Shown here piece after piece: positions 527-61,200 of a stretch of 64,000 nucleotides of DNA. Location: the NCBI GenBank assembly GCA_037783545.1, contig JBBELK010000032.1:372001-436000 (forward strand), in the 5' to 3' direction. The notes under the pieces are model-generated. The model saw only the letters and a list, made by a program, of their open reading frames with translations. It searched no databases and was not told where the DNA came from. The position numbers were made by a program, and so were the translations under genes. Every line of letters begins with the position of its first letter. Position 1 is the first letter of the stretch. The stretch is from Henricia sp. BOLD:AAB3569 (taxonomy: Eukaryota > Echinodermata > Asteroidea > Spinulosida > Echinasteridae).

Positions 527-9161
<8,635 letters not shown>

Positions 9162-13627: not shown

Positions 13628-15709
13628 ATATAGGTTTTCTCGGTCAATTTCGGCAAATGAGCAGCCAATTTAACCACTACGCTATTCTATTTCGCGCAAA
13701 ATCGAATGCTACTAAAAAGGGTCATTTGATTTCGTTTGATGACCAGTCAAATGTACTGTTGCGTCATTCGATTTAACATAATACTCATTCAATTTAACAA
13801 TTCAACAAAGCAGCATTCAAATTCGCAGGAGCTTTTTGAGGCGTGTGTTTAGTCATTCAAATTCATTTTTGGGCAGTCATTTCTGGAATTTGTGCAATCT
13901 AAAAAACGCTTTGTTAAACTTTTGTTTCCTTAAGAATGTTAAAGGCATAAATACGGTTCACTTATTGGCACTTGAGTCACTTTGCCGATGTACTTCGAAG
14001 ACGGGCTTTCGCTACAGTTTTACACGCATATTTCTAGAAATGGCAGCTCGTGGTCGCTACGCTAGAGTGGCCCAGGTAGATTGAGAAAGGTTGATTGAGG
14101 CCTTCGAGGGAAACGAGCAAGACTACCTTGAGCTTGCGGTCAATTTGAACATCAACAAGTCCACAGCAAAATCAATTGTTGCAACATATTTGATGACTGG
14201 AAGGTGAGAGACGCTGACAAGAGGGGAGCAACCCACAGCAAGATGGATGCTGACATGCGAAACCATCTGCAAGGCATCCTTGACGCTAATCCCGTCTTGA
14301 CACTTCAACAAATGAAGGCTAGTTTCAGTGAGCATCTGCCAGAGAAGCCCCAGGGCTCTACTGCCACCATAGCCAGGGCCTTGGATGGGATGATGATCAC
14401 ACTGAAACTATGGAGGACGTCCCTGATGCAAGAAATTCACCTGACGTTCTTGATCAACGCGTCCAGTATGGTGAACGGTTCCTGCAGCATGGTGTTCTGG
14501 CGCATCTAGTCTTCATTGACGAGACAGGTTACAACGTCTGGACTCGACGCTCCCAGGGTAGGCCTCCGCGAGGGATGGCTGCAAGACGAGTCGTCGACAG
14601 ACAACGAGGGAGAAATTGCAATGTCACCTTCGCTGTTTCTAGTGAAGTAGGCTTGGTGCACCACCGAATCGCATTCGAAACTGTGACGCGAGAGAGATTT
14701 GAGGAGTTTCTTGCGGACACAATTCAAGAGTGTGATGCAGTTTTCCCAGAAGACGAACCCATTTACCTCATATACGACAATGCAAGGCCTCACGTGCGAG
14801 CCCAACTCCCTGAAGGTGCCAACCCAATGATCCAGCTGAAGCGCCTCCCTCCCTACTCCCCATTCCCGAACAGCACGGATATGGCACACTCTGCATTCCA
14901 GGCAGCAGTTAAACGCACCCTTGGGTTACCTGAGTGGCAACAACGTGTGGGAGACAGACAGGCTGCCCGGCAAGCAGGAATGAACATGCAGCAGTGGAGA
15001 TGCGATCTCCTTCAACAAGCAGCCATTCAGAGCGTTGATGCCATCACCCAAGTGAAGTGCATGCAGTGGTACAACAATACCCAAACATATATGCCAAGAT
15101 GTCTGGCACGCCAACAGATTGATGGTTGAGGAAGAAACAACATAAACAATAAAAAAAACATAAAGAAACACCCTATTCAAACACAATACAAAATTAGGTC
15201 TTGGTCAGTTAACCAATAAAGATCCCCTCCCCCCCAAAAAAAAAGAAGAAAGAAGAAAACAAAGAAGAGAAAACCTCAAGGGCCCCATGTAAAGTCTACT
15301 GGAAACATAATTAAAGAAAATAAGGTTTGCCTGAATTAAAGTCAAGGTACAAAACAGTTGCCTAGTACAGTTTATCTGTATATTTGTATTTATTTAGTCG
15401 TACTTATTTGAATTCTCATTTAGCGAAATTTATTGTCTCTTTACGAAATTGAAAAAAATTAAATCACTAAAATCTCCAGTCGAACCAGCTTTGCTAAATT
15501 GAATGCTGATTTAGTGTCACGAAAAAGAATGACGATATGCTAAATTGAACACGGTGCTAAAGGAATTTGAATGCCTCAGAACACAATTAAATGGCCGAAC
15601 TCTGAATTTGAAACGCAGTAACAACTAGAGAGGCAAAATAGCTTTAATTCGAACCCACGAAAATTAAATCGGCTGCTCATTTGCCGAAATTGACCGAGAA
15701 AACCTATAT
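13628..15709 (+). mobile_element. complete Tc1/IS630-like transposon, inactive
   Basis: Terminal inverted repeats ATATAGGTTTTCTCGGTCAA...GCAAATGAGCAGCC (13628-13666) and the complement at 15671-15709 are almost perfect. The dinucleotide TA flanks both ends (13626-13627 and 15710-15711), the target duplication of Tc1/mariner/IS630 elements. Subterminal regions contain many ATTCAATTTAAC-type words. The transposase gene inside is broken. Length 2,082 bp. Confidence 0.9.
14041..15129 (+). pseudogene. IS630/Tc1-family transposase, broken
   Basis: The N-terminal helix-turn-helix region (from ATG at 14041: AARGRYARVAQV, stop, then EAFEGNEQDYLELAVNLNIN) has an in-frame TGA at 14082 and changes frame twice. 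The linker continues from 14204 (NPVLTLQQMKASF... STATIARALDGMMITLK). The catalytic DDE_3 domain is open from 14410 to 15129: first Asp in VFIDETGYNVWT, second Asp in IYDNARPH, third acidic residue Asp in PPYSPFPNSTD. The usual third Glu is thus Asp, 33 residues after the second Asp. It acts by cut-and-paste on TA targets; this copy cannot make a full-length protein. Confidence 0.88.
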
Positions 15710-15992: not shown

Positions 15993-18900
15993 CTGCGTCG
16001 TATAGAGAAAAAAAATGACACGTCTAAATAAGGTAAAACAGTGGCGGATCTGCCCTCATTAAAATACAATAAAACAATGAAATTCAGGGGGTTACAACCC
16101 CATGAAATCCATTGTATTTTTGTATCCATTGTATACCAGTCCTGTAATCTTAATGAGGCCAAATCCGCCAATGTAATAATAATTTGCACTGTATTTTCCG
16201 TTATTCAGCAAGCACTGCCTGTGGGGGGTCAGACAAGTCGACCGTTGAGACAACTCGACCGTTGAGACAACTCGACCGTATGTGCGATAAATGGAAAGAC
16301 AAGTCGATCGTTGAGACAAGTAAAAGGGGGAGGAGTGATGGTGCTTACCCATTCAGTGACACGGCCGTTCTGGTCGACTTGTTTTTATTGTTTGAAAATA
16401 AAATATGTTATTTCAATTTCAAAATTTAAATGTGTCCGCTGAGTTGTCTCGGCGGTCGACTTGTCTCGAGTCGAGTTGTCTCAACGGTCGAGTTGTCTCA
16501 ACGGTCGACTTGTCTCAAGTCGAGTTGTCTCAACGGTCGACTTGTCTGACATCCCTGCCTGTGGATCCACCCACTATGCACTCCAATGTTTAATTAATAC
16601 ATAAATGCACCAGCGATGAATAGTACCATTAGATCAATGCTACCATTTTGTAAAAAAAATATTACCCTTTGTGTGTTGCAATTGAAGGTTACTGGGTCTA
16701 CACTAAAACCAGTTAAAGAGGTAGAATTCCCCCTTGACGAAAAATCCAGCATTTGCACCTTTTTCGATAGTCCATATCCTCCAGCCGACTTATACCGCTG
16801 TTTATTTCAAATTGTCCGTTTTAAGTGGATAAATCGCAAGCAAAAGTGCAGTTTTCGAAAATGAAATTTTCGCGATTTCTGAAACGCTTATTTTAAATGA
16901 TATGCGCGTGACGCAATCCTGAGAAACACGAGTAAACACGCGGTCGACAGTTCCATACGCTTACACGCAAACAACTCCAAAAACCGTCTCTGTTCCATGG
17001 TATTTTTTGAAGAATTGTTCTGGTGCAAAAAGCCAGAGATGTGCCCAGTATAGTTGTGTGGTTGTACCCTATGCTTTATTAGACACCATGAAAATGAAAA
17101 GAGCAGAAATATTTTCTTTTTTATTACCGAGAAAGAAAAAAAGAGTCGCTCGTTCTAACTTGTACCGGCCGATGCGCATACCATGTTGTGCCAATTTATA
17201 ACACGTGGGAACTATACGGCCCGCAGGGACCGTTCCCACTGCTGTACACAGACCGCTGTGAATGCCGTTCGTTCCGTGAGAAAACCACCGGTCGCAATGC
17301 ACCATATTTACTTCAAAAGAGATTCATTGTGAGCAACAATTTCACAGTTTTTCACAAAACGGGTAATAGTAGATTGTCATATTACATCAAGTGTTTTTCA
17401 CGTTTGTATTTTGAATTACAAGGACAAAACAGGCATGATGAACATTCACTCCGTGTATTTTATATTCAATACTGCACATGCCGTTTTGTGTTCTTCTCAG
17501 GATGACGTCAAAACCCTGTTTATCAACTAACCAAGTGACCTCGAGTTTTAAAATTTCAGGTGAAGAGGGGAGAGGGGGTGAATGTGGACGGGGGATGCTA
17601 GCTGTTTAACTGTTTCCGTGCTCATCAGCAATGGAGAGACAATCGCACGACGGAAACAAAAACATTCGACAGTCGCAGGACAATCGCAGCACATTCGTAC
17701 GATTTAACTATATACGATAAAGTGCCCACGACATCGCGGCGATAAAAAATTATCATACGAACTTGGTACGATGAAAAATTACAAAAAAGAACGTAATTAA
17801 ATGTTATTTAATTTCACCTTTCGCGATGCATTGGCGAACAGCTTCAGCTTCGTACTGAAGTCCAGCACTGTTTGGGTAGACAAATCCCTCGCAGTTCTTT
17901 TCGATTGGAAACTCCAGCACTTCGTTGGTCAATTCTAGGTCAAGTGGATTCTCGCTTTTCTGAACAGATGTCGTCACGTCAAGTTTCAGAGGACACCAAA
18001 GGAACGAGGGGATCTAGGAAGAATGTACGGCGTGAACTATGGACCGTATCGAATATCCGCCATTTCGTGGGGCACGTTTTGTTACTTAAACCGTTCAACA
18101 ATGGAAGCACAATATGTGCAACCATGCATGTCCTCAAGGAACAAAATCTGCTCACGAAATGGCGGATATTTCGATACAGTATATAGTGCAGAACCCGGTA
18201 AGTCTTTAGGTCTGTGTGTGCTAGGCAATAGACCATTGGCCCTGACAGGGGGCCATGTTTTCATATTTAAAATGTGTGACAATAGATCTACAAAGTGCCT
18301 ACTCTTGAATGACACGTGGTGACAATGTAACTGCCCTCTGTCATGGCCGCCTGTGCAAATGGACTTTTGCCTACTTAGCTTAGTTAGTAATAGACCGATC
18401 CGGTAAGCTCCGCCCATTTTGGAATTGACCAATCACAGCCTCAGGTTCAGGTAACCAAAATGTTTGGTTACCCGAGTCCTCAAAATGTTGTGCACAGAGC
18501 TACGGCAAACCTAGCACGAGTGTCGCAAAAACACCATAAACATCATTTTTATCACTAGCGCAGATGACCCAAGCCGGTTTAAAACGGATTGTATAAGACT
18601 ATCCTAACCTACTTTTAATTCCTTCATCAATGTGTTTTTGTGTAAACGGGAAAAACTCACCAAAATTAGCTTGTCGTTTTGCTATGTTTTGCATTCACTG
18701 CGTTCTAGATATAGATGTGTGTCGAGATGTTTTTGTTTGATCGCGCGCGTTACGCGTAATGCAGGCGTGTTGTACGTGCACGCACACGACCGGATACTTA
18801 AAGGCCCAGTGGATCATTTGCAATGACCCCAAAAAGTAATCGACGAGTTTACAGTGGAAAAGTTCTGAAAGTCAAGATTTAATTAATAGCAACTATCCAT

Positions 18901-21900
18901 TGAAAGGTTTTCGCTCAAAATGATATAATTTTACCAGAAAATAATCCGTAAAGATGAAATTATTTAGATCGTTTGCAAACGATTTACTTATTTTTGGTTC
19001 GCATCTACGCGGCCCAAAATGCATGGGCGCTGTGTACTCCGTGTGCGTGTTCCAACGCGATGCATTTTTATAGATTGCGCGCACACGCAGTATGTGCGCC
19101 GCAGAGTGCATGAAGCAAGCCACATAGTACCCGATCAACTGAGAACGAATATTTGAAACACCCCGCCAAGACCAGGAAAACGCATATGGATTTTCATGGT
19201 TTTTTTTAAATGTGGTACATTTGACAAAGCTGAAACTTCTTCGGATGAGTTTGTTGATGTCTTTCTTTTGATTTATAATGGTTTTAGTCGCAGAATCGCT
19301 CAAAAACAGATCATCTACAGGGCCTTTAAGTGCACATTTTGCTTTCGAGCGTGCAGTTTCTGTGTGCGTGTGCGTGTTCAATACGCGCTGACCAGGGCGC
19401 TGACGCACGGCGCGGCCACGCGACTCTACTGCACACGTGCTTCACATGTGTGACATGTTGTTATGCAATTTCTAAATGGGCGGAGCCTTACTGGATCGGT
19501 CTAATTGGTATTCATGAAATATTACTAGCGTCAGTTGCTTCTTTTTATGTTTTTTTTTTCTTTTTGCAAACGACCTTGACCTATTCATTCAACACAAAAA
19601 CCATGCTTGGATTGTTAAAGGAGATGCTGATTAAGACATAATTATACATCAATCGAAAGCTTATGAACTCTGGAAACGTAAAAAAGTATCACTTCCACCT
19701 GAAATTTAGTGGTTTTTTAGTAAAAGATGAAAAACTGCTGTGCGGTTGGACTCCCCAGGTCCCGCCGCTCACATCAGATTCAAATCGACAGAATTGGGCG
19801 CCTTTTTGATGACGTAGGCGAAGGGACATAAATCACGTGACCCTGCTCGGTGCGATAGCAACGACATAGGGCGTGTTTGTTTCACGACATATCCGAATCC
19901 AGATCCCGAGTTATTTTACGAGCAGAAACAAACGTAACTGCTCTCGACTAGGAATTCAAGTCACGTGAATTGGATCTGCGCAGATCTGAATCAGGATCCG
20001 TCCGAAACAAACACGCCCATAAATACGTACAGCGGCCATTACACTTCAGCCGTTTGTTGTTAATGTTTTCATTGCGCAAATTATCACTGAGAAATGAGTC
20101 ATAAAACTCCAGAAGAGGAAGAGTTAGATGTCGAACTAGAATATGAATCCTCCTCAGACAGCTCAGAAGAAATTAGAGGTGTTTTTCCCGGCGAAGAAGA
20201 CGATGATACTGGCGTTAACAGCGCGGCTACTGCTGAGCTCGACGGCGAGGTCGCTTTTGGTTTATACGAGCCTCTTGCCCGCGATCGCGACGAGGCTACC
20301 GTTGGCGGACATGGCAGAAGTGGTGTTCGTGAAGAGGACCGACCGGACCGACTGCAATCCTCGGTTGACAGCTGGTTAGTTGGGTTTTTGTTTTACCATG
20401 AACGTAAACCTCCGGTCTCCCGGACCCGGGGCAATTCTGTCACTCGCGCTCGATCCATGTTCAGCGGTATTACCCGCAACAAGCGCCCAGGGCGAGCGCA
20501 AGCGTGATTTAGTCTAGGCCTAGCCTGTAGCCAGGCCCGCTCGGACCGGTGCGGAGCGTGTTCAATGGAGCAGTACGTTTACGGCCTATAAACGGTAAAA
20601 CTAAGAGTTGGTCAGATTTGTTTTTTTAATGACTGTCAAGTATATCGGTAGGGCCTAGCCTAGACTAAGTGCAGATTTGTTGGCTGAAAAAATAAAATAA
20701 AATAATTTGAGTGAGATTTTGTGAGGAAACAAATTTTCAGCCCGTCTCATAATTTGTTGCACACACTTCGTTCTTTTCAACTTCCGTCATGTCTGTGGTG
20801 AAAACATGAGCAAATACCGCATATGGGCCTAGGTAATTGTACTGTTGAACAGATGCAGATCCTAGTGATTAAAGGAGCGTGACCAGATACCAGATCACAT
20901 TTTTGACCCCCACATTTTTCCCATGGGTTTTAAGATTTTGATAGTTACCACATAGTCGCATTCTAAAAAAAAGCACCGGTTTGTAAACTAAAATTACGTT
21001 CCATAAAGCAGTGCATGTTCCACTAATCTTTTTCACTTCCATATCTAAATTGGAGATTGCAATTTTTCAGTTTTCTTCCCATGGATAGTATTTTAGGGAG
21101 GTATTTGATATGATTGTTACTGTTAGGTGAAAAAGAAATCAATTTTCTGGAAAAATCGGAACACGCTTGGAAGATAACAATGCCCGGCCGCCATGGCATG
21201 CCCAGTAACAACCATAGCTCTTCCTATTGGCAAATCTACCACTCGGTTGAATTTGCACAAAGCTGAAATGTATTGTGGGAAAATTTACAGGGCAGAACTT
21301 GCCCCATTTTCCTCTCCACAATATTACTATACCTCAAGGCTGGTTATTATTATCACCAAAACCAGCATGTTTACATGGTTTGCAGATCAAAGCAAGACAT
21401 CTTCATTCTTCACGTGACAATTTGATTTCCTTTTGTATTTCTTGATCTAAATCCAGGTGCAACTGCGGCCACTGCAAGAAAATGGACAGCTTCGACAATG
21501 GAGACCTTGTTTGCTGCAGGGAAATTCCCGAAGTATGTGTAGAGGCTGACCGTTTTGGATCTGCGTGCATCACAACAACACACCCCTTTGAGCCTGCAGT
21601 ACTTAATCCTGTATCTCTCTATATCGGATGGTTGGAGTATACTGAAAGATGGAGGCAGGCAGCTAAGAATTTCCAAGCACGCACCAATGAGTAAGTAAAA
21701 TTGGGTAAGAGTTGAGAAGTTGATCAGATTTTTTGCTTTAAAGGAGTGTGACCAGATCACTATTTTTTACCAATAACTCCCCGGGACTTACCTTATGGGT
21801 CATGAGATTTTTATATCATAACATCCGTTATATTTTTCTGATTACGAAACTGAAACTCCCGTGCTTCTAGGCCGCATATTTCCGAGGATATCGTTGAAAA

Positions 21901-24900
21901 TCCACCGATTATTTGTAAACTAATTTTCCAGTATCAACGTTTATCCGCTGAAAGCATACTCGATAGTTTTGTTCAATTTTTTACTGGAATTTGTGAATGT
22001 TTTTGGGTTTTGGGGACATGGGAGGTGTGTATGGGAGTTACTTGATAATATTGGTAAGTTACATCGAAAACTATTTTCCAGAAACTCTGGTCACGCTCCT
22101 TTAAATGACTCATCTAGCATCGGTATGTGGAAGTTTAAGATTTCATAAGGAAAATTTTCAGCCTGTCTCGATCATGTTTTGCACACAAGCATTATCGGCA
22201 ATCAAAATGAACATGCAGAAGACAGTGAACATTTATGTTGATTACCATCTCCAAGGTATATTTTGGTGTCTGCAAAAAATAAAGGCCAAATTAATTTACT
22301 TGACAAAATCTTTAATTTTCCTAATGTGCTTCATAGGTTTGTAAACACAGGGCCAATGGTGGTGCCTGGATATAGAAATCATTCCAAATTTTTTAGCACT
22401 AGCTTAAATGATCGATATAAAATGGCACGGATTTGAGAAAAACCGCTGTTCCAGTAGTTCAGATTATGGATGATATTGGATCTTGTATAGCACAGTAGCG
22501 TAGCACGGCCGACTATATTGAGGGCGCAATATGGACAAGTCCAAATCATGTCAATATTGCACCATCAGGGGCAGATCCAGGAATTGTTTTTTTAGGAGGG
22601 GGTTTTGCCCTCCAGATTGTTTAATTTTTATGTCAGCTTGTTTCGGACAGGTGGACAAAAAAAATGCATTTCATTATATTTGATGGTGTGACCCAACTCG
22701 ATGACAAACGTTTATCAGATCAGGATTCCCTTTTTTAGTTAAAGGGAGAGATCACTGCCTGAGACCCCATGCACACAACCTATTGGACAATTTAAAAGAA
22801 TTTAATTTTTTTTTCTCAGTAAACTATACATTTTTTTCTATTTGTGTTTTTATCAAAACCGGAAATTTCTCATGGTTCACAGCTATAAAAAGACAAATCC
22901 TCAATGTATGGTAATCTTTCCCCATTGAATCTAACAATTTGCTGATAGGTGACATGACTCGTATTGTCAATTTTTTAATCCCTTTACAGGAAGTACCGGT
23001 ACGTGGCCTACAGAAAACTGGTCAGATGGTGCTGGGGATGGTTGGGGAAAGACATCAGGGTGCAGTTGCCAGCATGTGCTCATGCCAGAATCATCGAAGA
23101 ATATCCAGACATGCGCAATCACTACAAAGGAACAATTCTTCGCCCTTTAGACACTGATGCCTGAGAACTGAAGAAAGCCGACTTTGATTTAAAATTGTTG
23201 AGTGATGTAATGTTACAAGTCTGTTAAAGTTGAGCACTATTGACCCCTTTCGAACACTTGCGAATATGCCATTTTGGGAGTCAAATAATGCTGAGTCATT
23301 GTGGAAGCAATGTGCGTGCGCAACGCGGTTTAGTTCACCAATGGGAGCCTCAGCATAGCGCGTTACGCGCGCTATGGACACACACAACGCGCACGCACAT
23401 TGCTTCCACAACGACGCGGCATTGTTTTACTCCCAAAATGACGTCATTGGCACGAGCTCAATTGTTGCATTTGTCACAAGAATGAGCAACCCTGTATCCT
23501 ATGAAAATAAAAAAAAGTGAATCCAGAACAAACGGTTGACATCAGTTTTTAAAAGAACCTAATAGACAGCCGAACAATTACAAGTTATGTCATTGTTCAC
23601 TTTGGGAACAAAAATCATATTTCAGAAAAAATAGAAATGCATGTATTTTTTAATGAATGAGAAAACCCAAGCATGGTTTCAAGTCTAGCCCGAATGAAAT
23701 GCACAGTACAATTACATAGCTGCAATTTCAATGATTTGAGCATCTAGCTGAATGAAGTCTGTTTTAGTGCCCATGGCAAATCAGTTTTCATTTAATTATC
23801 TCAAACATACATTGAGAGAAAATCCCTATTGTCTTTATAGTGGTTTGAACCCAAGACCTCTGGCCTGCAGATTACATGTACCGGTACATCCAATTTTCCA
23901 TTCTGCAATAACACTGCCAAGGATGGATTTTCAATATATGCATTGCCCACCAAGCCGACAACTGTAAGAAATACATTGGTGGGCCTATAGTTCGAATTTC
24001 TATGAAGACCATATATGATTTTACCCTCATCTCCTGCTTGAGTAATTCATTTTTACGGTGATTAATAGGCACATTACTCAGTACTGCATTCAAATATTTC
24101 AAGTTAGAGCCGACAGGCAAATATTGAAGGGAAATAAAAAGAACTGTCTCAACACTGAACCCCTCATAAAATGGCTTTCCAAGAGCTGCCCCTTGGTACA
24201 ACTGCAATGGAGGATGTCATTCAATTTTCATTGGCTGTTGGGGAGCTGGCAGTTGTTTGCACTCTCATAGGGGTGGAAAACCTACGATGCTTCTGGTATT
24301 GAGCGACTGCCGGAGCCTTATTTGGTCGCTCCACACTTGCACACATTGGCTGTGGTGCTTGGAGCTCCTGCATTTGCTCTCGAGCTGTTTTGTCCCCTGC
24401 CTGAACTAGCTGTATGACCTCAGACACAAGCCGCTTACGTATGACCTGTATCAAAAATAAAACAAACATTAGGAATAATAATTATTAAGTTGAAACTGAC
24501 AGGCACAGACGTGCAGATAAGGTATTACTAAAATGATTAGTAAATCACAATGCATCCAAAACCACATGACAACCAACTTCCTTATATTGACCCCTTACGA
24601 ACGCGTGCAAATACGCCATTTTGGGAGTCAAACAATGCCGAGTCATTGTGGAAGCGATGTGCGTGCGCGTTGTGTGTGTCTCTGGTGGGCGTAACACGGT
24701 TTAGTTCACCAATGGGGACCTCAGCATAGCGCGTTACGCGCGCTATGGACACACACAACGCGCACGCACATCGCTTCCACAACGACGCGGCATTGTTTTT
24801 TCCCCAAAATTACGTCATTGGCACGAGCTCAATATGTTGTTACTGCATCCGCTGTTTGCATCTGCTGTCGGACCACCAAGTATGCAACGATTCCCCGAAC

Positions 24901-27900
24901 GGCCCGACTGTCTTCTCTTCATCCTGCCACCACGCTGACGTTTTCAGTGCCTGCGGTGTACTTCACATGCTTCAACTCACTTGAAATCCATTCACATTGT
25001 AGCAAAATCCATCAGCATTATGAGTTTTAGACTATTACAAATGAATCCAAGGAAAATAGGAAAGTTGCAAATTAAATTCAGCACCATTAATATCGCACGT
25101 TCAGAGGTAAATTCAATCATACCCTTTTCCCAGCTTTCCCCAATATTTTTGTCATTTGGACTTGGCCAAAATATGTGAATGACATTTTTTTCTGGGAGGC
25201 ATGTACACAATAATGTCTTGATAAGCTGTAAAATAAAGTCTGAAACTCATACATGTACACTGTATGCTGATGGAATTTGCTACAATGTAAATGAATTTCG
25301 AGTGAGTTGTTGAAAAAAAGGTGTTTTTTCCTGTATACATTGAACAAATATTTGAAGAAAATTACTTCTTGGAATCAACAGATCATCCAATTCGAAGATA
25401 CTTGTCTATGTAATTTAAACTTGCACTTCTGTCGGAAATGTTGCATTTCTCAGACAAAATAATTATAAAATTACTGCAGAGAGTAATCAAGGTAATGCAC
25501 AAAATTGCGGCGGGAGAGGTTTGTGTGTAAGCGCAACAATAGAGGGCGCTGCGTGCGTGCGTGAATGGTTATTTTGTGCATAACTGAATACAATTTTTGA
25601 AGGAGAAAATGTGATTTTACTATAGGAAAAAAAAACGTTACAGCAAAAGTACATGTGGGAAATATATCTTAAATTTAGATAAATCTTTGTTCAATGTACA
25701 TTGAACGGAAGAAAAAAAACCGGAAAGAGTTTGACGTCGTAATAGTCTACCACGCTTACATTTTCAGCGCCCGCAGTGCACTCAACAAGTCACTAGAAGT
25801 CCATTCACATTGAAGCAAAATCACTATCATTTCGGCTTCCAGAAAAACTTCCGCATATTTTGGCCAAGGTCAAATGAAAAACAATATAAAAGTTCGACCG
25901 ATGCCGCAAATCGCCCTTTGGGTGTCAGACGCTTCGCCCCATTTCCAATTCGCCCCATGTCAGTTCGCTCCATACCACTTCGCCCATTGCCACCTCGCCC
26001 ATGCTATTTAGCCGGCAGTCAGTCAATAAAATAGGGAAAATAGTTGAGGTCTCATTTAAAAGTGAATGACTTTTTAACAATAGGCTTCTTCAACTGTTCC
26101 CCTGCAGGGACTCACTCCAGTTTGGAAAACTTGCCGGCTTGCTTGCAAACTAAAAAATAAAAATAAATAAATAAAAATAAAAAGTCAACTTTAATTCGGA
26201 CCTCTTTAGTTTAATTAACTGCACTCAAATTCGGCTTAAAATGAATTGAATGAAATTTGTTTGATTGGACTAAAATTATTTGTTCGTAAATTGAAGTTGT
26301 TTTTGACCTTGTTTTCTTATTTTGTTGGTTTGATCACATGGAGGAATTTTCTTCCATGGTCAGATGGTTTGATCATATTCATATGCCTAAGCAATTTCAA
26401 TGTAAATTTAAACCAGCCCTGGTGCAGTGTTAAAGTAAGTTACGTTTCTTTCTATGTTATCGACCGACTGCCGGCTAAATATTAATAGCATTGGTGGGGC
26501 AAGTGGCAATGGGGCGAAGTGGTATCCGTATGGGGCGAACTGACAAGACGAACTGACATGGGGCGAAGTGACTCCATGATAATAGCGCGGAAGGAATTAA
26601 CGCGGCGCACTTCACACATGCTTCAACAACTCGCTGGAATCCATTCACATTCTAGCAAAATCCATGACAGCATATGCGTTTCAGTCTTTTACAGCTTAAT
26701 CCAGAATTGTTTGCCTTCCAGAAAAAAACTGTCATTCATATATTTTGGCCAAATCCAAATGACAAAAATAATGGAAAAAGTTCGACCGAAGTCGCAAAAG
26801 TTTACTTACGGAAAATCGTCTGACAACATGGCGAACTCCACGCTGATACGGTGGCCTATTTCGAGCATTTGCACCCGCGCGCCATGATACAGGACACAAC
26901 AGCACTAAGCTGGATTTTATTCATGTGAAACGTCTATTAGGGCCTACAGGCTCTCTTGTATAATATCACATCAACCTTATTTTACATGAAGAACTGCTGG
27001 ACAAGATAAGACAGTACATGCACAGGTTTGTAGACAAGTTAGCGTTCCGTCTATGGAGATCACGTGACATGTGTCCCTGCGCCTACGTCACCATAAAATC
27101 CACGATCGATTGGGCTGGTTTTGGGCGCGTTTTGGGCTCCTTCAAAATTGCCACTTTTCTTGCTTTTTTTGCCTTCCGCGAAGCTTCAAAAATTCAGAAA
27201 AAAATATATTCCATTTCCAGAGTTCATAAGCTTTCGATTGATGTATAATTATGTCTTAATCAGCATCTCCTTTAAGGTTTTCTGAAGTATACATGTGGCT
27301 AAAATTCCTACATACAACTAATAGAATGAGGTATATTAACATTTTTTCTTCAGCAGTTATGTAATGCTGTTTTTGGGAATGTTTTTAAAAGTTTCATTGG
27401 CAAATTATATAATGGCCTTTAATTGCATAAAATTATAGCTCACTTTGATGCAACCCTTTGTTCCCCTGATTTCAATTTCATTTGCAAGGGTCACCGCCAC
27501 GCTGCAAGTCAGGGATGCCACTGCCTTGTTCGGGAATAACAGTGTTATGACAGTCGTTTCGTCCACTCCTGTGCACACAATAGAGTAAAGCAGGAACATT
27601 CTAAACAAAATACAAACATCATAATGTAAACTTCCGCATTGGCCTTTTAACACATTCCAGATTATTTTGTTGCCGTTTGGCACAGCTTAATTTGTTTTAT
27701 TCCAACCAATATCCGTATCGAATAGCCGCCATCTTGTGGGGCAGTTTCTTTGTTCCTTGAGGACATGCATGGTTACACATATTGTGCTTACATTGTTCAA
27801 CAGTTTAAGTAACAAAAGGTGCCCCACAAGATGGCAGCTATTCGATACGGTCTATATGCCAGATACCAAATTGTTCGGGCAAGTTAGCAACAAGAAAATT

Positions 27901-30900
27901 TTGGGAGGTAACTATGCCCCCTAAACCGACCAATCAAATATACTTAAAATGGTCTTATTAGGCCTATAAAGTGCTAACACAAAGGAGCGATGTTAAAAGG
28001 AGAGAAAAGCAAAACCTTAGAACGGCAAATTCCTGGTTTTTGGATGGGGTACTTTTCTAGAAATCTCCCAGTGAGAGGTGTCCCGTATGGTTGCGTTCAA
28101 GGGACACGGCATACCACATATATCTTTGCAAAATTTGCGATGTCGCACATCTTTGCAAATATGTGAGCCGCTCTGGAGAAAGGTAGAACAGCCGAAGTGT
28201 GACGTGCGTTGCCATGGTAATTGGCTCTAAACTATATCATGGCCGTCGGAAAAGTACCATTGCAAAAGCACAGGGACGCGGTTGAGTGAATTTTAGTTTA
28301 AAAAGTCACTCAGTTTATAAGTCGCACAGGCTAGGTCGAGTTTTTGCGACCATAAAAAGAAATCTACGGCAGATCCACGCTTATTAAAATACAAAAACAC
28401 AATGGAAATTCCCGGCGGTGCCCAGATTTCCATTGTGTTTTTGTATTTTCATTGCGACCAAGCAGTACTGCTGTTCGCCAGGAAATGTCGATAACAGGCG
28501 AGTTAAACTACCCCCAATTAACAGACGTTTAAGGATTTCATTGTTATTTGCACTCGGGTGTTTAACTTTTTGCCGCGAGTTAGAAGTGGGTAAATAAACG
28601 CATGTTTATCATCCGTTTTTGAAGGTTGCACACGATTACCTTTCGTAAATACGGGCCTTGGTGTCCACTTAACCATACTAAATTTGTGTTGCTATGTGGT
28701 GCACGTGACAGGTGTGAAGTACAGAATCATTAACGTTTTACTCGTTCTTATGCAGATGAGAAGGCGTCATGCATGAGGGGAAGCTGAAAACGTGTAAAAG
28801 CACGCAATATACTTCACGGGTTTTACGCAGCCAAAACGGACGTCCCAAATTTACTTCAAGGAGAAACAATTTGGAGTGGTTCGGGGACAGGTTACTATAC
28901 CAGTGATCGTCGTTTACATTTGGGTAAAGTATGGGCCTAACATTTGCAAACGTTTCAAGGGTAAGGTTGCGTTGACATTGATTCATGGTAAATACATGCA
29001 AGCTCATAAATACCAAGAAAAGCACTGTTTTTCGAGTACGCGCGGGTGGGCCTATCGACGAAGAACCCATCCTTTTGCAACAGTGCCCCTTTAACGCACT
29101 CCCCAACTCCTGCGTACAGTGGCCCTGTTGAAAAAGGCCCCATTTGGCGGTGGGACTAGCGACAGAAATCCTGTCGCCTCTGCTGGACCAATCAGGACGC
29201 TTGCAGTGCATTGTGTAGCACGATTGCAAGCATTCAAATGTCACGCGCGCAGATTGTAAACACCGTGCACGCATGTGATACATGTACTCGGTAATGCTGG
29301 CCGTTGTCCGCGTCGGCGATTGGCTGCTATTTAAAGCATACTGGGGAATCCGTTCCATTACATTCGTCAGCATGCATCCCCGTTATTAATTTGAAAAACT
29401 GCGGAGTAAATAAGGTACGCCGTTTGAAAGTTTGGTAGGAATGGGACAGTCATAAGGAACGGAACCCAATACAATTTCTGGAAAGTATAGAAATTGTTTC
29501 TTTTCGGCATAACATGACCGAATTGATTAAATTACATCAAAATGACTCGGGCGTGAGTTGGCTCAAGACAACAGCCGGCTCGCTCCACAGATTTGCGTGT
29601 ATTTCCTCAGGGTATTGTCACGTCGCTTTGCAGAGTGGAAATTCCCTGAGATCTCAGGATGCGAAGAACCGTGCTTCCCTCATAAGGTATACATGTATTT
29701 AATATTTTTCTTTCAGGTACATAAGGATGACAGGCGCAATAGGAAATTGTTTACGTTTGAGCTTGCGAATTAGCAATAATCAAACTTGACAACAGTATAG
29801 TGTAAACCAACATTTCCGTTAATAAGGCAATTCATAAGAACGATGACAAATGCACATCAGAAATGCTGTAACTGACAGTGGCTCGATAAACAACCTGTAA
29901 AAATATGTAAAATCACAGATTGTTTTACAGTAGATGGTACAAACACTATGAGCAACTAACAATGGAAATTGGGCACACACCATTGTTATTAACACTGGTG
30001 TGTGCCCAATTTCCATTGTTAGTTGCTCATAGTGAAATATTGTCGGATTGACGGTTAAAGGGTTAGTTAATGACAGTGTCTTGTCAGATACCTGTTTCTG
30101 CCAGGTAACCCTTGGTGGACCATGCGGCTGGAGGTTGACCGAAAATCATAAGAGTCACCTGGACGAGGTATACTCCAAGGTCCAACAGGGCACCTCCTCC
30201 ATACTCTGAAATATGGACAGTGAATGTTTGGTAACTGATAAATATGGCGTCCATTAGTTCAGTTTCTTATAACCTACGGTACAACGCATGTGAACACGTC
30301 AAAAGTAGCCTACGGTAGGCTAATTCGGTCGTTTCTTAATACATCAAGGCGCTACCAAGAGAAGTCTGTCCAGCACATTAAAAACCGGCACTGCTTGATT
30401 TTATCGTCCTATTACCCTTTCCCCATTTTGTTTCATAAATTGACTGTGGAGTTAATTTCAAACTTGTTTCGTCAGCCTTGCAGAATTCTTGTAAAGGCTG
30501 TTAAATTTACTACACTGATCAATGTGATCTGTGCTATCTTGGCAGTTTGCATTACCCAAATTTTTCAACTTTTTACCTTTGTAAGCGAATCTTTCTCCGA
30601 ACAATAGTGGTATTCCAAAGGACCCCGTAACTGACTTGATTTCCCCAATGTGGCCAGCATCAAGTAGTTCCCGTAACTTCACATTTGCTGGGAAGAATCG
30701 ATTCCACCAACCCTGTGGTAGGATAGCAGGATATAGTAAATTTTAGTAAGCACAATATATTAATAACATTAATTAAAGGAGCTTGACCAGCTCACTTTTT
30801 GACTCCCCCTCCTCACTTACATGTACCTCATTACCATTCTGAAATTTTGCGAAAACCACCGATGTTTAGTAAAATAATTTATCCGGTTCTATAAAACAGT

Positions 30901-58139: not shown

Positions 58140-59930
58140 CAAAGGAATGAATGCATCAATGAATTATTATATATAAGCTTAATTGTTATCAAGATGGTAA
58201 TGGTAGTAATCCTACTGTGAAATTATTTCGTCTGAAACGTTCCCCCATTGATGAGAAAAATGTCAAAACGGGAAAAAAGTACATGTATACCATTCTATAG
58301 CCAGCGCCGCGCCAGTTCAGACTGCTATATACTAACTTATCTACGGAGCATGACACACATAGGCTGCGTTCGGGCGTGTACTCGTGTTAACACGAGTTAT
58401 ACTCCTGCGCGCGTGAACGGCAAGAATAACGACACTCGGGTCAGTGAGAGTATGCTCTCACTATACTCCCCAACAAATGGGGAGTGTGCTCGTACTCCTG
58501 TCAAGTGTCATGTGACTTGTACGAAGATGGTAGAATATGGGTGGGATTTTTGGTGAATTTGCTCAACGTGTCAACTCAATAACTGAAACAATAACTCACT
58601 AAGGTTTGTTTTAGACGGCATCGAAGGTTCTCACGACAATACGGCCTGTATTTCCTCAGTTTCTTGTGAGCAATAAAACGGCATTTTTTTGTGCAGTGAT
58701 GGCAAGAGACGTCCATCTTCACTGATTGCCATTCGCGCACGCGGACTGCCGATTTGCCGTTCGCGTTATGTGACCCGAGTGCAATGCGCACGCATTACTC
58801 CCGAGTAACGAGAACTGCACGCCCGAACGCAGCCAAAGTGTTTTCAAAAGAAAACTTTTCTCAATGCTAAATTCATGTTTCCTTACTAAATTTACACTTT
58901 CTGGGGCATTATCATGTCATATTAGGAAGAATTTGTGGCGAAGGTGTATGGTATACCGTCAAAACTAGTTGAATCTCCAAAGATCCCTGTAGGCGATTTT
59001 GGCCGGGAGCCATTCATTCATGCACAAAACCATGCTTTGATTTTTTAGGTTTTCTGAAGTATTACTGCATGTATGTGGCTGAAATTTCTACAAGGTAGTT
59101 TTCTCGACATATGCTTTCAATGGAAATAACAGTGGAAATAACGCCCTTTTAACAGTTTACCAATCATGTACTCTACCTTTAAGGTAGCTAGATTCACAAG
59201 CTGCAATATTGAGGGCGCACTCCGGGATATACAAATTTGTGCATGCAAATTGTCACCAGTTTTAAACCTATAGGCATATTTATTTTATTGGGAGACAAAA
59301 ACAGTATCAAGAAATGTTTCATATCGAACAATTCATCAATAAAGGGATACTTCATTTATAAACAAATATTAACAAATTAACTTAATTATCAGTATGAGTA
59401 AATGCCAAGTGTTGTTTTAGAGGACCTCAAAAGTTAAAGTACGCGCCCCCTTCGAGCTTCGCGTACACAATCCTAAAACAAGAGAAATTGAATTATAAAA
59501 GGCTCGTTTTTGTAAATAGACCTATCTAAGGAATTAACGATTCTTTTATTTCCTCGAAATAGTTAAATGTAATTTTTTGAAATAAAATATCAATTTGTTT
59601 GGGAAATATCACCTTGTCTCATCTCTAGTCTGTTTCCAATTATACTAGTTAACGGTAAACTTTACAAAATGAAGCAAATTACCAACGATACAAAATAATT
59701 TACAGAAAAATAATGATGAACTTATGTTTAAATGTAGGTCCTATATAAATGTACAATTAAGTCGGGTTTGGATTAAATTTTTACAAAATGGGAGATATTT
59801 ACCTGTAAACATATGAAGACGAAACAAAGGGGTTGGGTCTTCAAGAAAGATGAATTGCAGACCAGCGCGTCACTGCGCGCGAACAAGCATAGAGGCCGCT
59901 GTACTAATTTGCGTAGTATTCGCGGGAACA
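58140..59930. other. intergenic; repeats and AT-rich sequence
   Basis: 58140-58260 and 58970-59180 are TTAAAGGTAGT-type repeat pieces; 58372-58834 is the second GGCTGCGTTCGGGCG element; 59200-59930 has no recognisable content. Confidence 0.6.
58372..58834. mobile_element. GGCTGCGTTCGGGCGTG element, copy 2
   Basis: Same termini and about the same length as 41701-42164. Confidence 0.75.
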
Positions 59931-59934
59931 AACA

Positions 59935-60345
59935 GCTCTACTAATTCCAAAATTACATAAAGGTACTTACCTGCAATATAATTGGAATTATATAAGCCAA
60001 TGAAGGATAGATTCACACTCCCTCCCTATCTATTCTACAGGTGTTTAGCATCCCTCCCAGAGTCATTTGCAGATGCCTCCGCCAGTGGATGTTTACCTTT
60101 ACAGCTTCTAACAGACGTCTCCACAGCGATGCACATAACTTTTAAACCAAGCGGCTTTGTGAGAAATTTGCATGCTAATGAGAGCTTTCAAGGGTGGATC
60201 GGGTTGTGTCACAAGGGACAAATCTACAGGGTGAGTCTATCCTACATTGGCTTATATAATTCCAATTATATTGCATTTAAGTACTTTATGTAATTTAGGA
60301 ATTATATTACGCCAATTCCGGATAGACTCACCCTGTAGACTTAAA
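59935..60345. repeat. terminal repeats of a DIRS-like element
   Basis: ATTACATAAAGGTACTTACC...AATTGGAATTATATAAGCCA-ATGAAGGATAGATTCACACT (59950-60022) recurs in inverted form at 60232-60300 (GGGTGAGTCTATCCTACATT...), and a further partial copy follows to 60340. Such split, inverted ends beside a tyrosine recombinase gene fit DIRS elements. Confidence 0.5.
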
Positions 60346-60825
60346 AGCACTTGTTGAGGAAGTAGACATCGATTGTCTGTGGTAGAAATTGGCGAAGGTG
60401 GTAGCTGAAGACAAGTCAGCTGTTTTTAAGATGTCATTGGTAGAGACACCAGCAACTGCAGCAGCAGAGGCTGAGGCACTTTTTGTAGAATGTGCTTTGA
60501 AGATAGATGTGTCTATTCCTGACTGAAATATAACATCCTTCAACCATCTGGAAATTGTAGATGGGACCACTGGATAGTAGGGTTTGGTGCGTGAAAGTAG
60601 AAGTTGTGACATTCTAGAATGGCCACTGCCTCTGTTAGGTTCCGTCCTTTCTAAGTATTCCTCCAGGGTGCGTGCTGCACATAATGTTCTTGAACTATGG
60701 AAACGCGGAATTTCTATTTCATGGAAAGGTTTGGCAACAGAGACTCTCTTCGATGGTTTTGTCAACCAGAATATATATTTCCCATCTGAACATCTTGTCA
60801 TTTGCGAGACGTCAATAGCCGTCAA
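60328..60825 (-). pseudogene. DIRS-type tyrosine recombinase, C-terminal fragment
   Basis: 165 codons: LTAIDVSQMTRCSDGKYIFW, ...ARTLEEYLERTE, ...VVPSTISRWLKDVIFQSGID, FKAHSTKSASASAAAVAG, ILKTADLSSATTFANFYHR. The helix with A-H-S-T-(R/K) and the final tyrosine in NFYHR fit tyrosine recombinases of DIRS retrotransposons, which integrate circular cDNA. The second catalytic Arg of HxxR is Lys here. The N-terminal part with the first Arg and the reverse transcriptase are missing, so it is a remnant. Confidence 0.7.
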
Positions 60826-61200
60826 AGAGGAACATCTTCCTATGCGCTACTGGCTTGGTGTGCACTTTCCGATACGATTAACCTCCGCCGAGTTGTACGC
60901 TCGTACACGCGTACCATCTGCCACAACCACTCTGCTGAGAAGTCGTCTTCGCTTTGGTCATCCATGGCGGAGACCCTATACCTCTCGCCATATTCTTGAA
61001 CCCACACAACCAACCATCAGAACCCTTTCGACGTGGCGGAAGCTTGGGCCGCACTTACATTTCACAGATCGTAGTCGATCTCAACGCCATCGGCCTTAAT
61101 CACGATTATGCTGTCCGTGCTGAACGGGATCGGGCAGGATGGCTGAGACAAATTTCGAGAATTTAAGCCATTGGCCAAAATGGGCTCGAGTAGCGTCAAC
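60826..61200. other. GC-rich stretch beside the recombinase, unassigned
   Basis: Overlapping short open frames on both strands (e.g. + 60954-61166, minus MDDQSEDDFSAEWLWQMVRV). None is recognisable; it may belong to the same retroelement. Confidence 0.3.

Follow-up and report, generated by a model that had tools for sequence, protein, structure and literature searches.

A transposase-defective Kolobok-type DNA transposon carrying an intact KolX gene in the sea star Henricia

Introduction

Kolobok DNA transposons produce TTAA duplications and have 5'-RR...YY-3' ends, and those of the Kol0 type encode a second protein, KolX, that shows the P2X7 ballast domain, a fold with seven cysteines (Kojima & Bao 2022, PMC9587614). 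The P2X7 receptor has been proposed to have arisen by fusion with KolX (PMC9587614). Here we analyse a 64,000-nucleotide stretch of the genome of Henricia sp. BOLD:AAB3569 (contig JBBELK010000032.1, positions 372,001 to 436,000; the window), in which positions 19615..27275 form a 7661-bp insertion, the TTAA at each end included. The element is, with near certainty, a Kol0-type Kolobok transposon that is defective in transposase and has kept an intact KolX gene; the fuller reading, which adds as a lead that KolX helps transposition, we consider highly probable.

The element has TTAA duplication, RR...YY ends and a KolX with ballast cysteines in common with Kol0, and a related unit elsewhere in the genome adds a transposase with THAP and DDE domains. 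It differs in that neither the window copy nor its two-ended sister copies hold the transposase core, and a perfect 62-bp end and three KolX exons are traits of the present family. The Kol0 hosts named in the relevant passages are vertebrates, annelids, cnidarians and sponges, with echinoderms not among them (PMC9587614). KolobokP, of the same superfamily, is reported from echinoderms and is characterised by long direct repeats at its termini (about 450 or 660 bp; PMC9587614); the 14 repeat families listed for the element include no terminal direct repeats, which rules against KolobokP. The ballast domain and its cysteines are also common to the cytoplasmic tail of the P2X7 receptor and to zebrafish Nanor (PMC7016195), but in the window the ballast is a free transposon gene with no channel. 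A term search of PMC6004289, on Xenopus Kolobok, found no mention of KolX or P2X7.

Results

The gene inside the element has three exons with GT/AG borders and encodes an unbroken 229-aa protein, in agreement with the initial annotation, which had recognised a stand-alone gene of P2X7-tail type. The protein matches Pfam P2RX7_C (E=1.7e-15) and, among PDB entries, P2X7 chains in their tail region (about 1e-5). A protein database search returned 16 matches; the 13 of them with a named source all come from echinoderms and share 52-67% identity with the window protein where they align, with the top score in Strongylocentrotus purpuratus (61%). All 14 aligned homologues share eight of the nine cysteines but not the ninth, and 56 of the 61 columns invariant among these homologues are kept in the window protein (the start methionine is among the five exceptions). 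Two unspliced database entries stop aligning exactly at the second intron of the window gene. Four S. purpuratus proteins are 94-97% identical to a fifth and all five lie on contigs of four different lengths, a near-identity across several contigs that is consistent with a mobile gene. We identify the gene as the KolX of the Kol0 lineage, which encodes the P2X7-ballast protein. Structure prediction for a sea-urchin KolX with 13 relatives gave low confidence, with a mean predicted local distance difference test score (pLDDT) of 43.5.

TTAA stands on both sides of the element, at 19615 and 27275, and the inverted ends match perfectly, as first noted, over 62 of 62 bp rather than the 58 or so originally given; just inside TTAA the termini read AG on the left and CT on the right. 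A second, subterminal inverted pair is 84% alike. The element sits between the fifth and sixth exons common to two similar minus-strand gene copies, in the first copy (flanking exons at about 27.4-27.7 kb and 17.8-18.0 kb, respectively). The host genes had been labelled DHDH, a putative assignment. The equivalent intron of the second copy spans about 1 kb, so the observation that nothing comparable is inserted there holds.

Unoccupied versions of the target were found within and beyond the window. The flanks of the element are part of a repeat, further copies of which, at window 3891-3972 and 59012-59092, align over the joined flanks. The target had been described as restored in these copies (at 3920-3940 and 59036-59060); the four-base site is indeed present once in each, but reads TTCA and TTTA rather than TTAA. 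Two copies of the flank repeat elsewhere in the genome have the site once, reading TTAA. A further contig, C285, is a counterpart of the locus without the element, representing the second haplotype or a close duplicate, and crosses the insertion point with TTAA once. Its identity to window 27271-28842, on one side of the site, is 94.1%; the other side shows 79.8% over the adjoining 119 bp and then 92.8% to window 16979-18391.

Window 18392-19501, about 1.1 kb adjoining the element, is likewise missing from the C285 counterpart. It holds facing TTAAAGGCCC ends at 18798 and 19329, and so we suspect that it is perhaps a second TTAA insertion.

To look for sister copies, the host genome (740.7 Mb, 2104 contigs) was searched with the 62-bp end. 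Of 19 matches, eight form four facing pairs, which define four two-ended copies with differing flanks: the window element (C32) and those on contigs C159, C366 and C556. In all four, the three KolX exons are open and the GT/AG borders intact, so that other full copies do enclose a P2X7-tail gene, a question that the initial annotation had raised. KolX is the same over all 690 bp in C32, C159 and C366, and C556 differs at six positions. C159 and C366 are each about 99.5% identical to C32 within common blocks, and thus elements of this structure have moved recently. Five more loci have a single end of at least 94% identity. C377 and C56 share a decayed KolX and the same flank, and are probably one insertion seen twice; in C231 and C242 KolX is represented by exon 1 alone, with a stop in the C231 copy; C921 has transposase exons and no KolX within the 29 kb fetched. 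The initial annotation had allowed that the ends might occur genome-wide only as separate short miniature inverted-repeat transposable elements (MITEs). Instead, KolX, its remnants or transposase exons are present at every one of the nine loci with an end of at least 94%, which leaves no gene-less MITE among them; the six further matches (78-90%) lie outside this locus-by-locus account.

Two features of the wider family can be added. The C366 copy is enlarged by about 12 kb of additional DNA at one point and, at three more, by about 0.9, 0.8 and 2 kb. A cluster of related elements occupies about 26 kb at C783:904872-930429, where the left subterminal region has five matches (78-83%).

The transposase survives in the two-ended copies only as remnants. 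In C159, two spliceable consecutive exons lie on the strand opposite KolX and face it; the window copy lacks about 950 bp spanning them and retains the last one. This last exon was chosen by eye from the list of open reading frames and recognised via the sister copies and a related gene on C254; alone it matched nothing in the protein database at E<=0.1, and Pfam found nothing in the two last exons together. In C556 the last exon matches in two pieces only, as a frameshift would give. Protein searches with four transposases found no THAP or catalytic exon in the four two-ended copies at E<=0.1, only last exons. A 78-bp fragment of a THAP exon, in inverted orientation, is also present in the window copy and lies within blocks common to C159, C366 and C556. 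The initial annotation had asked whether longer copies contain a transposase: in the two-ended copies nothing was found beyond the last exons and this fragment, but the single-ended C921 keeps both THAP and catalytic exons. Pfam recognised no transposase in six frames of the element, a result that is uninformative because Pfam is equally blind to the related spliced transposase described next.

A genome search with the two C159 exons led to a related family on C254 and C478. Its gene has a THAP exon (Pfam 7.4e-7) and seven more exons found so far, running toward KolX. Its spliced part apart from the THAP exon (579 aa) matches 522 database proteins at E<=0.001; the 120 relatives listed are spread over echinoderms, bivalves, amphioxus, fish, corals, sponges and other groups, and many have THAP or PF20700 domains. 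In the C254 gene, GD.R.DSPGH, DRH, D.WH and E..H stand at invariant columns of 11 aligned proteins, and we read these motifs as a DDD/E + C/DxxH signature with putative catalytic residues. On C478, a 10.8-kb unit (363268-374078) has 19-bp inverted TTAA ends with AG...CT, and its THAP and DDE transposase exons are convergent with KolX. The motifs, THAP domain, TTAA ends and KolX partner point to a Kolobok-type enzyme, in a comparison that includes no named Kolobok enzyme (none of the 120 relatives listed bears that name).

Across the whole genome, KolX and transposase are neighbours far more often than chance predicts. All 101 KolX candidates were scored, yielding 56 exon matches at 37 loci, a count that takes in fragments and possible haplotype duplicates. 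For the transposase, 17 matches from the two-exon search and 77 from a later search (75 of 228 candidates scored) gave 46 loci. A transposase piece lies within 15 kb of KolX at 18 of the 37 loci, four of them the two-ended copies, where 0.07 would be expected under uniform chance, and the two are convergent in 18 of 18. The 18 pairings are not independent events because C254/C478, C62, C195 and C258, and C192/C388 resemble copies or haplotypes. Sea-urchin matches to KolX and to the transposase carry neighbouring NCBI gene numbers in three instances: LOC129278314 and LOC129278312; LOC121423189 and LOC121423188 (both entries list a 36,689,291-base contig); and LOC121430960 and LOC121430959 (the entries list different longest contigs). 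From these numbers we infer neighbouring genes. The initial annotation described P2X7-tail genes as very numerous in many invertebrates; this is not borne out by PMC7016195, which gives fewer than ten per species, compared with the 37 loci counted in the present genome.

Discussion

Duplicated TTAA, RR...YY ends and a KolX gene occur together in one element, and therefore the central idea of the initial annotation, that genes of the P2X7-tail type belong to a TTAA transposon, was right, yet already in print: among open-licence papers in PubMed Central, one was found that derives the P2X7 tail from a transposon protein (PMC9587614). What the present genome adds is modest, namely recently moved transposase-defective copies with intact KolX, 37 KolX loci in one genome and the convergent layout. 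The published link thereby gains independent quantitative support from one whole genome, and copies that are defective in transposase and intact in KolX offer a natural entry point to KolX function.

How such copies move can be pictured as follows. A THAP-DDE transposase made elsewhere would recognise the ends of the element, excise it and insert it at TTAA, while KolX, which combines a zinc ballast with an acidic N-terminus, would help build or regulate the transposition complex. The initial annotation had likewise suggested a possible role in transposition, or else in evading host control. We take this role for KolX as a lead with an even chance of being correct, given that KolX is paired with transposase and survives transposase loss. 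Several observations weigh against this picture and the pairing that it builds on. At 19 of the 37 KolX loci no transposase piece was detected within 15 kb, and at 28 of the 46 transposase loci no KolX was detected nearby. In addition, no complete transposase gene was found in any copy bearing the 62-bp ends, so the source of the transposase is hypothetical.

Alternatively, KolX may be a bystander that defective copies do not need for their movement, still open because the copies are young and due to decay as the transposase did. We give this explanation somewhat less than an even chance. Arguing for it, the blocks common to C32, C159 and C366 are only about 0.5% divergent, and elsewhere in the family KolX has already decayed (C377) or acquired a stop (C231). 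Between C32 and C159, none of the 690 coding positions is mismatched, compared with 21 of 4829 non-coding ones (p=0.099), and between C32 and C556 the mismatches number 6 of 690 against 63 of 3299 (p=0.055); the latter six comprise two silent and four replacement changes, a ratio of nonsynonymous to synonymous differences (pN/pS) of 0.54, too few to show selection. Counter to this, insertions and deletions (indels) between C32 and C556 are absent from the 690 coding positions and number 25 in 3299 non-coding positions (p=0.015), and KolX stays without an indel in C556 while the last transposase exon of that copy is split in two. These tests exclude the right part of the element, in which C556 shows 38 mismatches in 1345 positions and 23 indels, and C159 shows 3 in 1741 and 2. 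Survival of KolX after transposase loss is thus only weakly distinguishable from the youth of the copies.

If KolX does help transposition, it is also conceivable, if unlikely, that it acts in cis or prefers the DNA from which it originates, such that even elements lacking a transposase would need a KolX of their own in order to move. Were this so, it would follow that no gene-less MITE appears among the nine loci with well-matched ends, that KolX outlasts the transposase and that free P2X7-tail genes accumulate in genomes. The part inherited by P2X7 would then have evolved for a DNA-bound transposition complex.

The initial annotation had left the choice between piggyBac and Kolobok undecided, and the ends settle it in favour of Kolobok. 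A piggyBac element, from the other TTAA superfamily, would account for the TTAA target and is otherwise very improbable: the AG...CT termini are of the form given for Kolobok and unlike those of piggyBac, and it is a THAP-DDE transposase that the window remnants match. KolX-like proteins do occur in a few piggyBac families, but they are described as lacking most of the seven cysteines (PMC9587614), all of which are present in window KolX.

That KolX is a host gene trapped between two independent TTAA insertions, or a passenger picked up once, deserves practically no credence: single-ended family remnants (C377, C56, C231, C242 and C921) are the sole point in its favour, and it is refuted by a KolX-plus-transposase layout common to independent TTAA families, alongside the equivalent placement of KolX in four of four two-ended copies, the transposase piece beside 18 of 37 KolX loci and the description of KolX as a Kol0 gene (PMC9587614).

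Feature coordinates and other observations

Table 1. Features of the element and positions of its two-ended sister copies (window coordinates unless a contig is given)
Feature	Position	Strand	Remark
Entire element	19615..27275	+	Kolobok-type, transposase-defective, KolX-carrying; from its ends and the unoccupied counterpart on C285
Left inverted end, 62 bp	19615..19676	+	TTAA then AG; 62/62 bp identical to right end
Left subterminal inverted repeat	19803..19840	+	84% to 27060-27097
Block of about 149 bp	19869..20017	.	Unique relative to C159, C366 and C556; from blastn block borders and sequence
KolX exon 1	20094..20374	+	Acidic N-terminus
KolX exon 2	21457..21690	+	Carries six conserved cysteines
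Facing TTAAAGGAG ends, 367 bp apart	21738..22104	.	In KolX intron 2; matching sites in C159 and C366
KolX exon 3	22990..23164	+	Ends in stop codon
THAP-exon scrap, 78 bp	23904..23981	+	Inverted relative to transposase remnant; 90% to THAP exon of C921 copy
Last transposase exon	24221..24436	-	Convergent to KolX; about 950 bp of C159 missing at 24436/24437
Right arm	24838..27275	-	97.6% identical to DNA preceding THAP exon of C921 copy
Right subterminal inverted repeat	27060..27097	-	84% to 19803-19840
Right inverted end, 62 bp	27214..27275	-	CT then TTAA; 62/62 bp identical to left end
Two-ended copy	C159:1481391-1489859		8469 bp
Two-ended copy	C366:535221-558417		23,197 bp
Two-ended copy	C556:513939-520358		6420 bp

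Smaller rearrangements are apparent inside the element. The block of about 149 bp is probably a small nested insertion, as its ends resemble an inverted pair, and the facing ends in KolX intron 2 probably mark a nested small TTAA element. Two part-palindromic repeats of about 250 bp, 84% alike (window 23238-23467 and 24585-24839), bracket the transposase-remnant stretch and may have helped to rearrange it.

Elsewhere in the window, a 265-aa open frame (14332-15129, plus strand) resembles, and may encode, a Tc1/mariner-type transposase, and a 172-aa open frame (60328-60846, minus strand) resembles a tyrosine recombinase such as DIRS or Crypton elements encode. Open frames at 464-895 and 5940-6335 (plus strand) resemble, and may be, exons of an SMC5-type gene.

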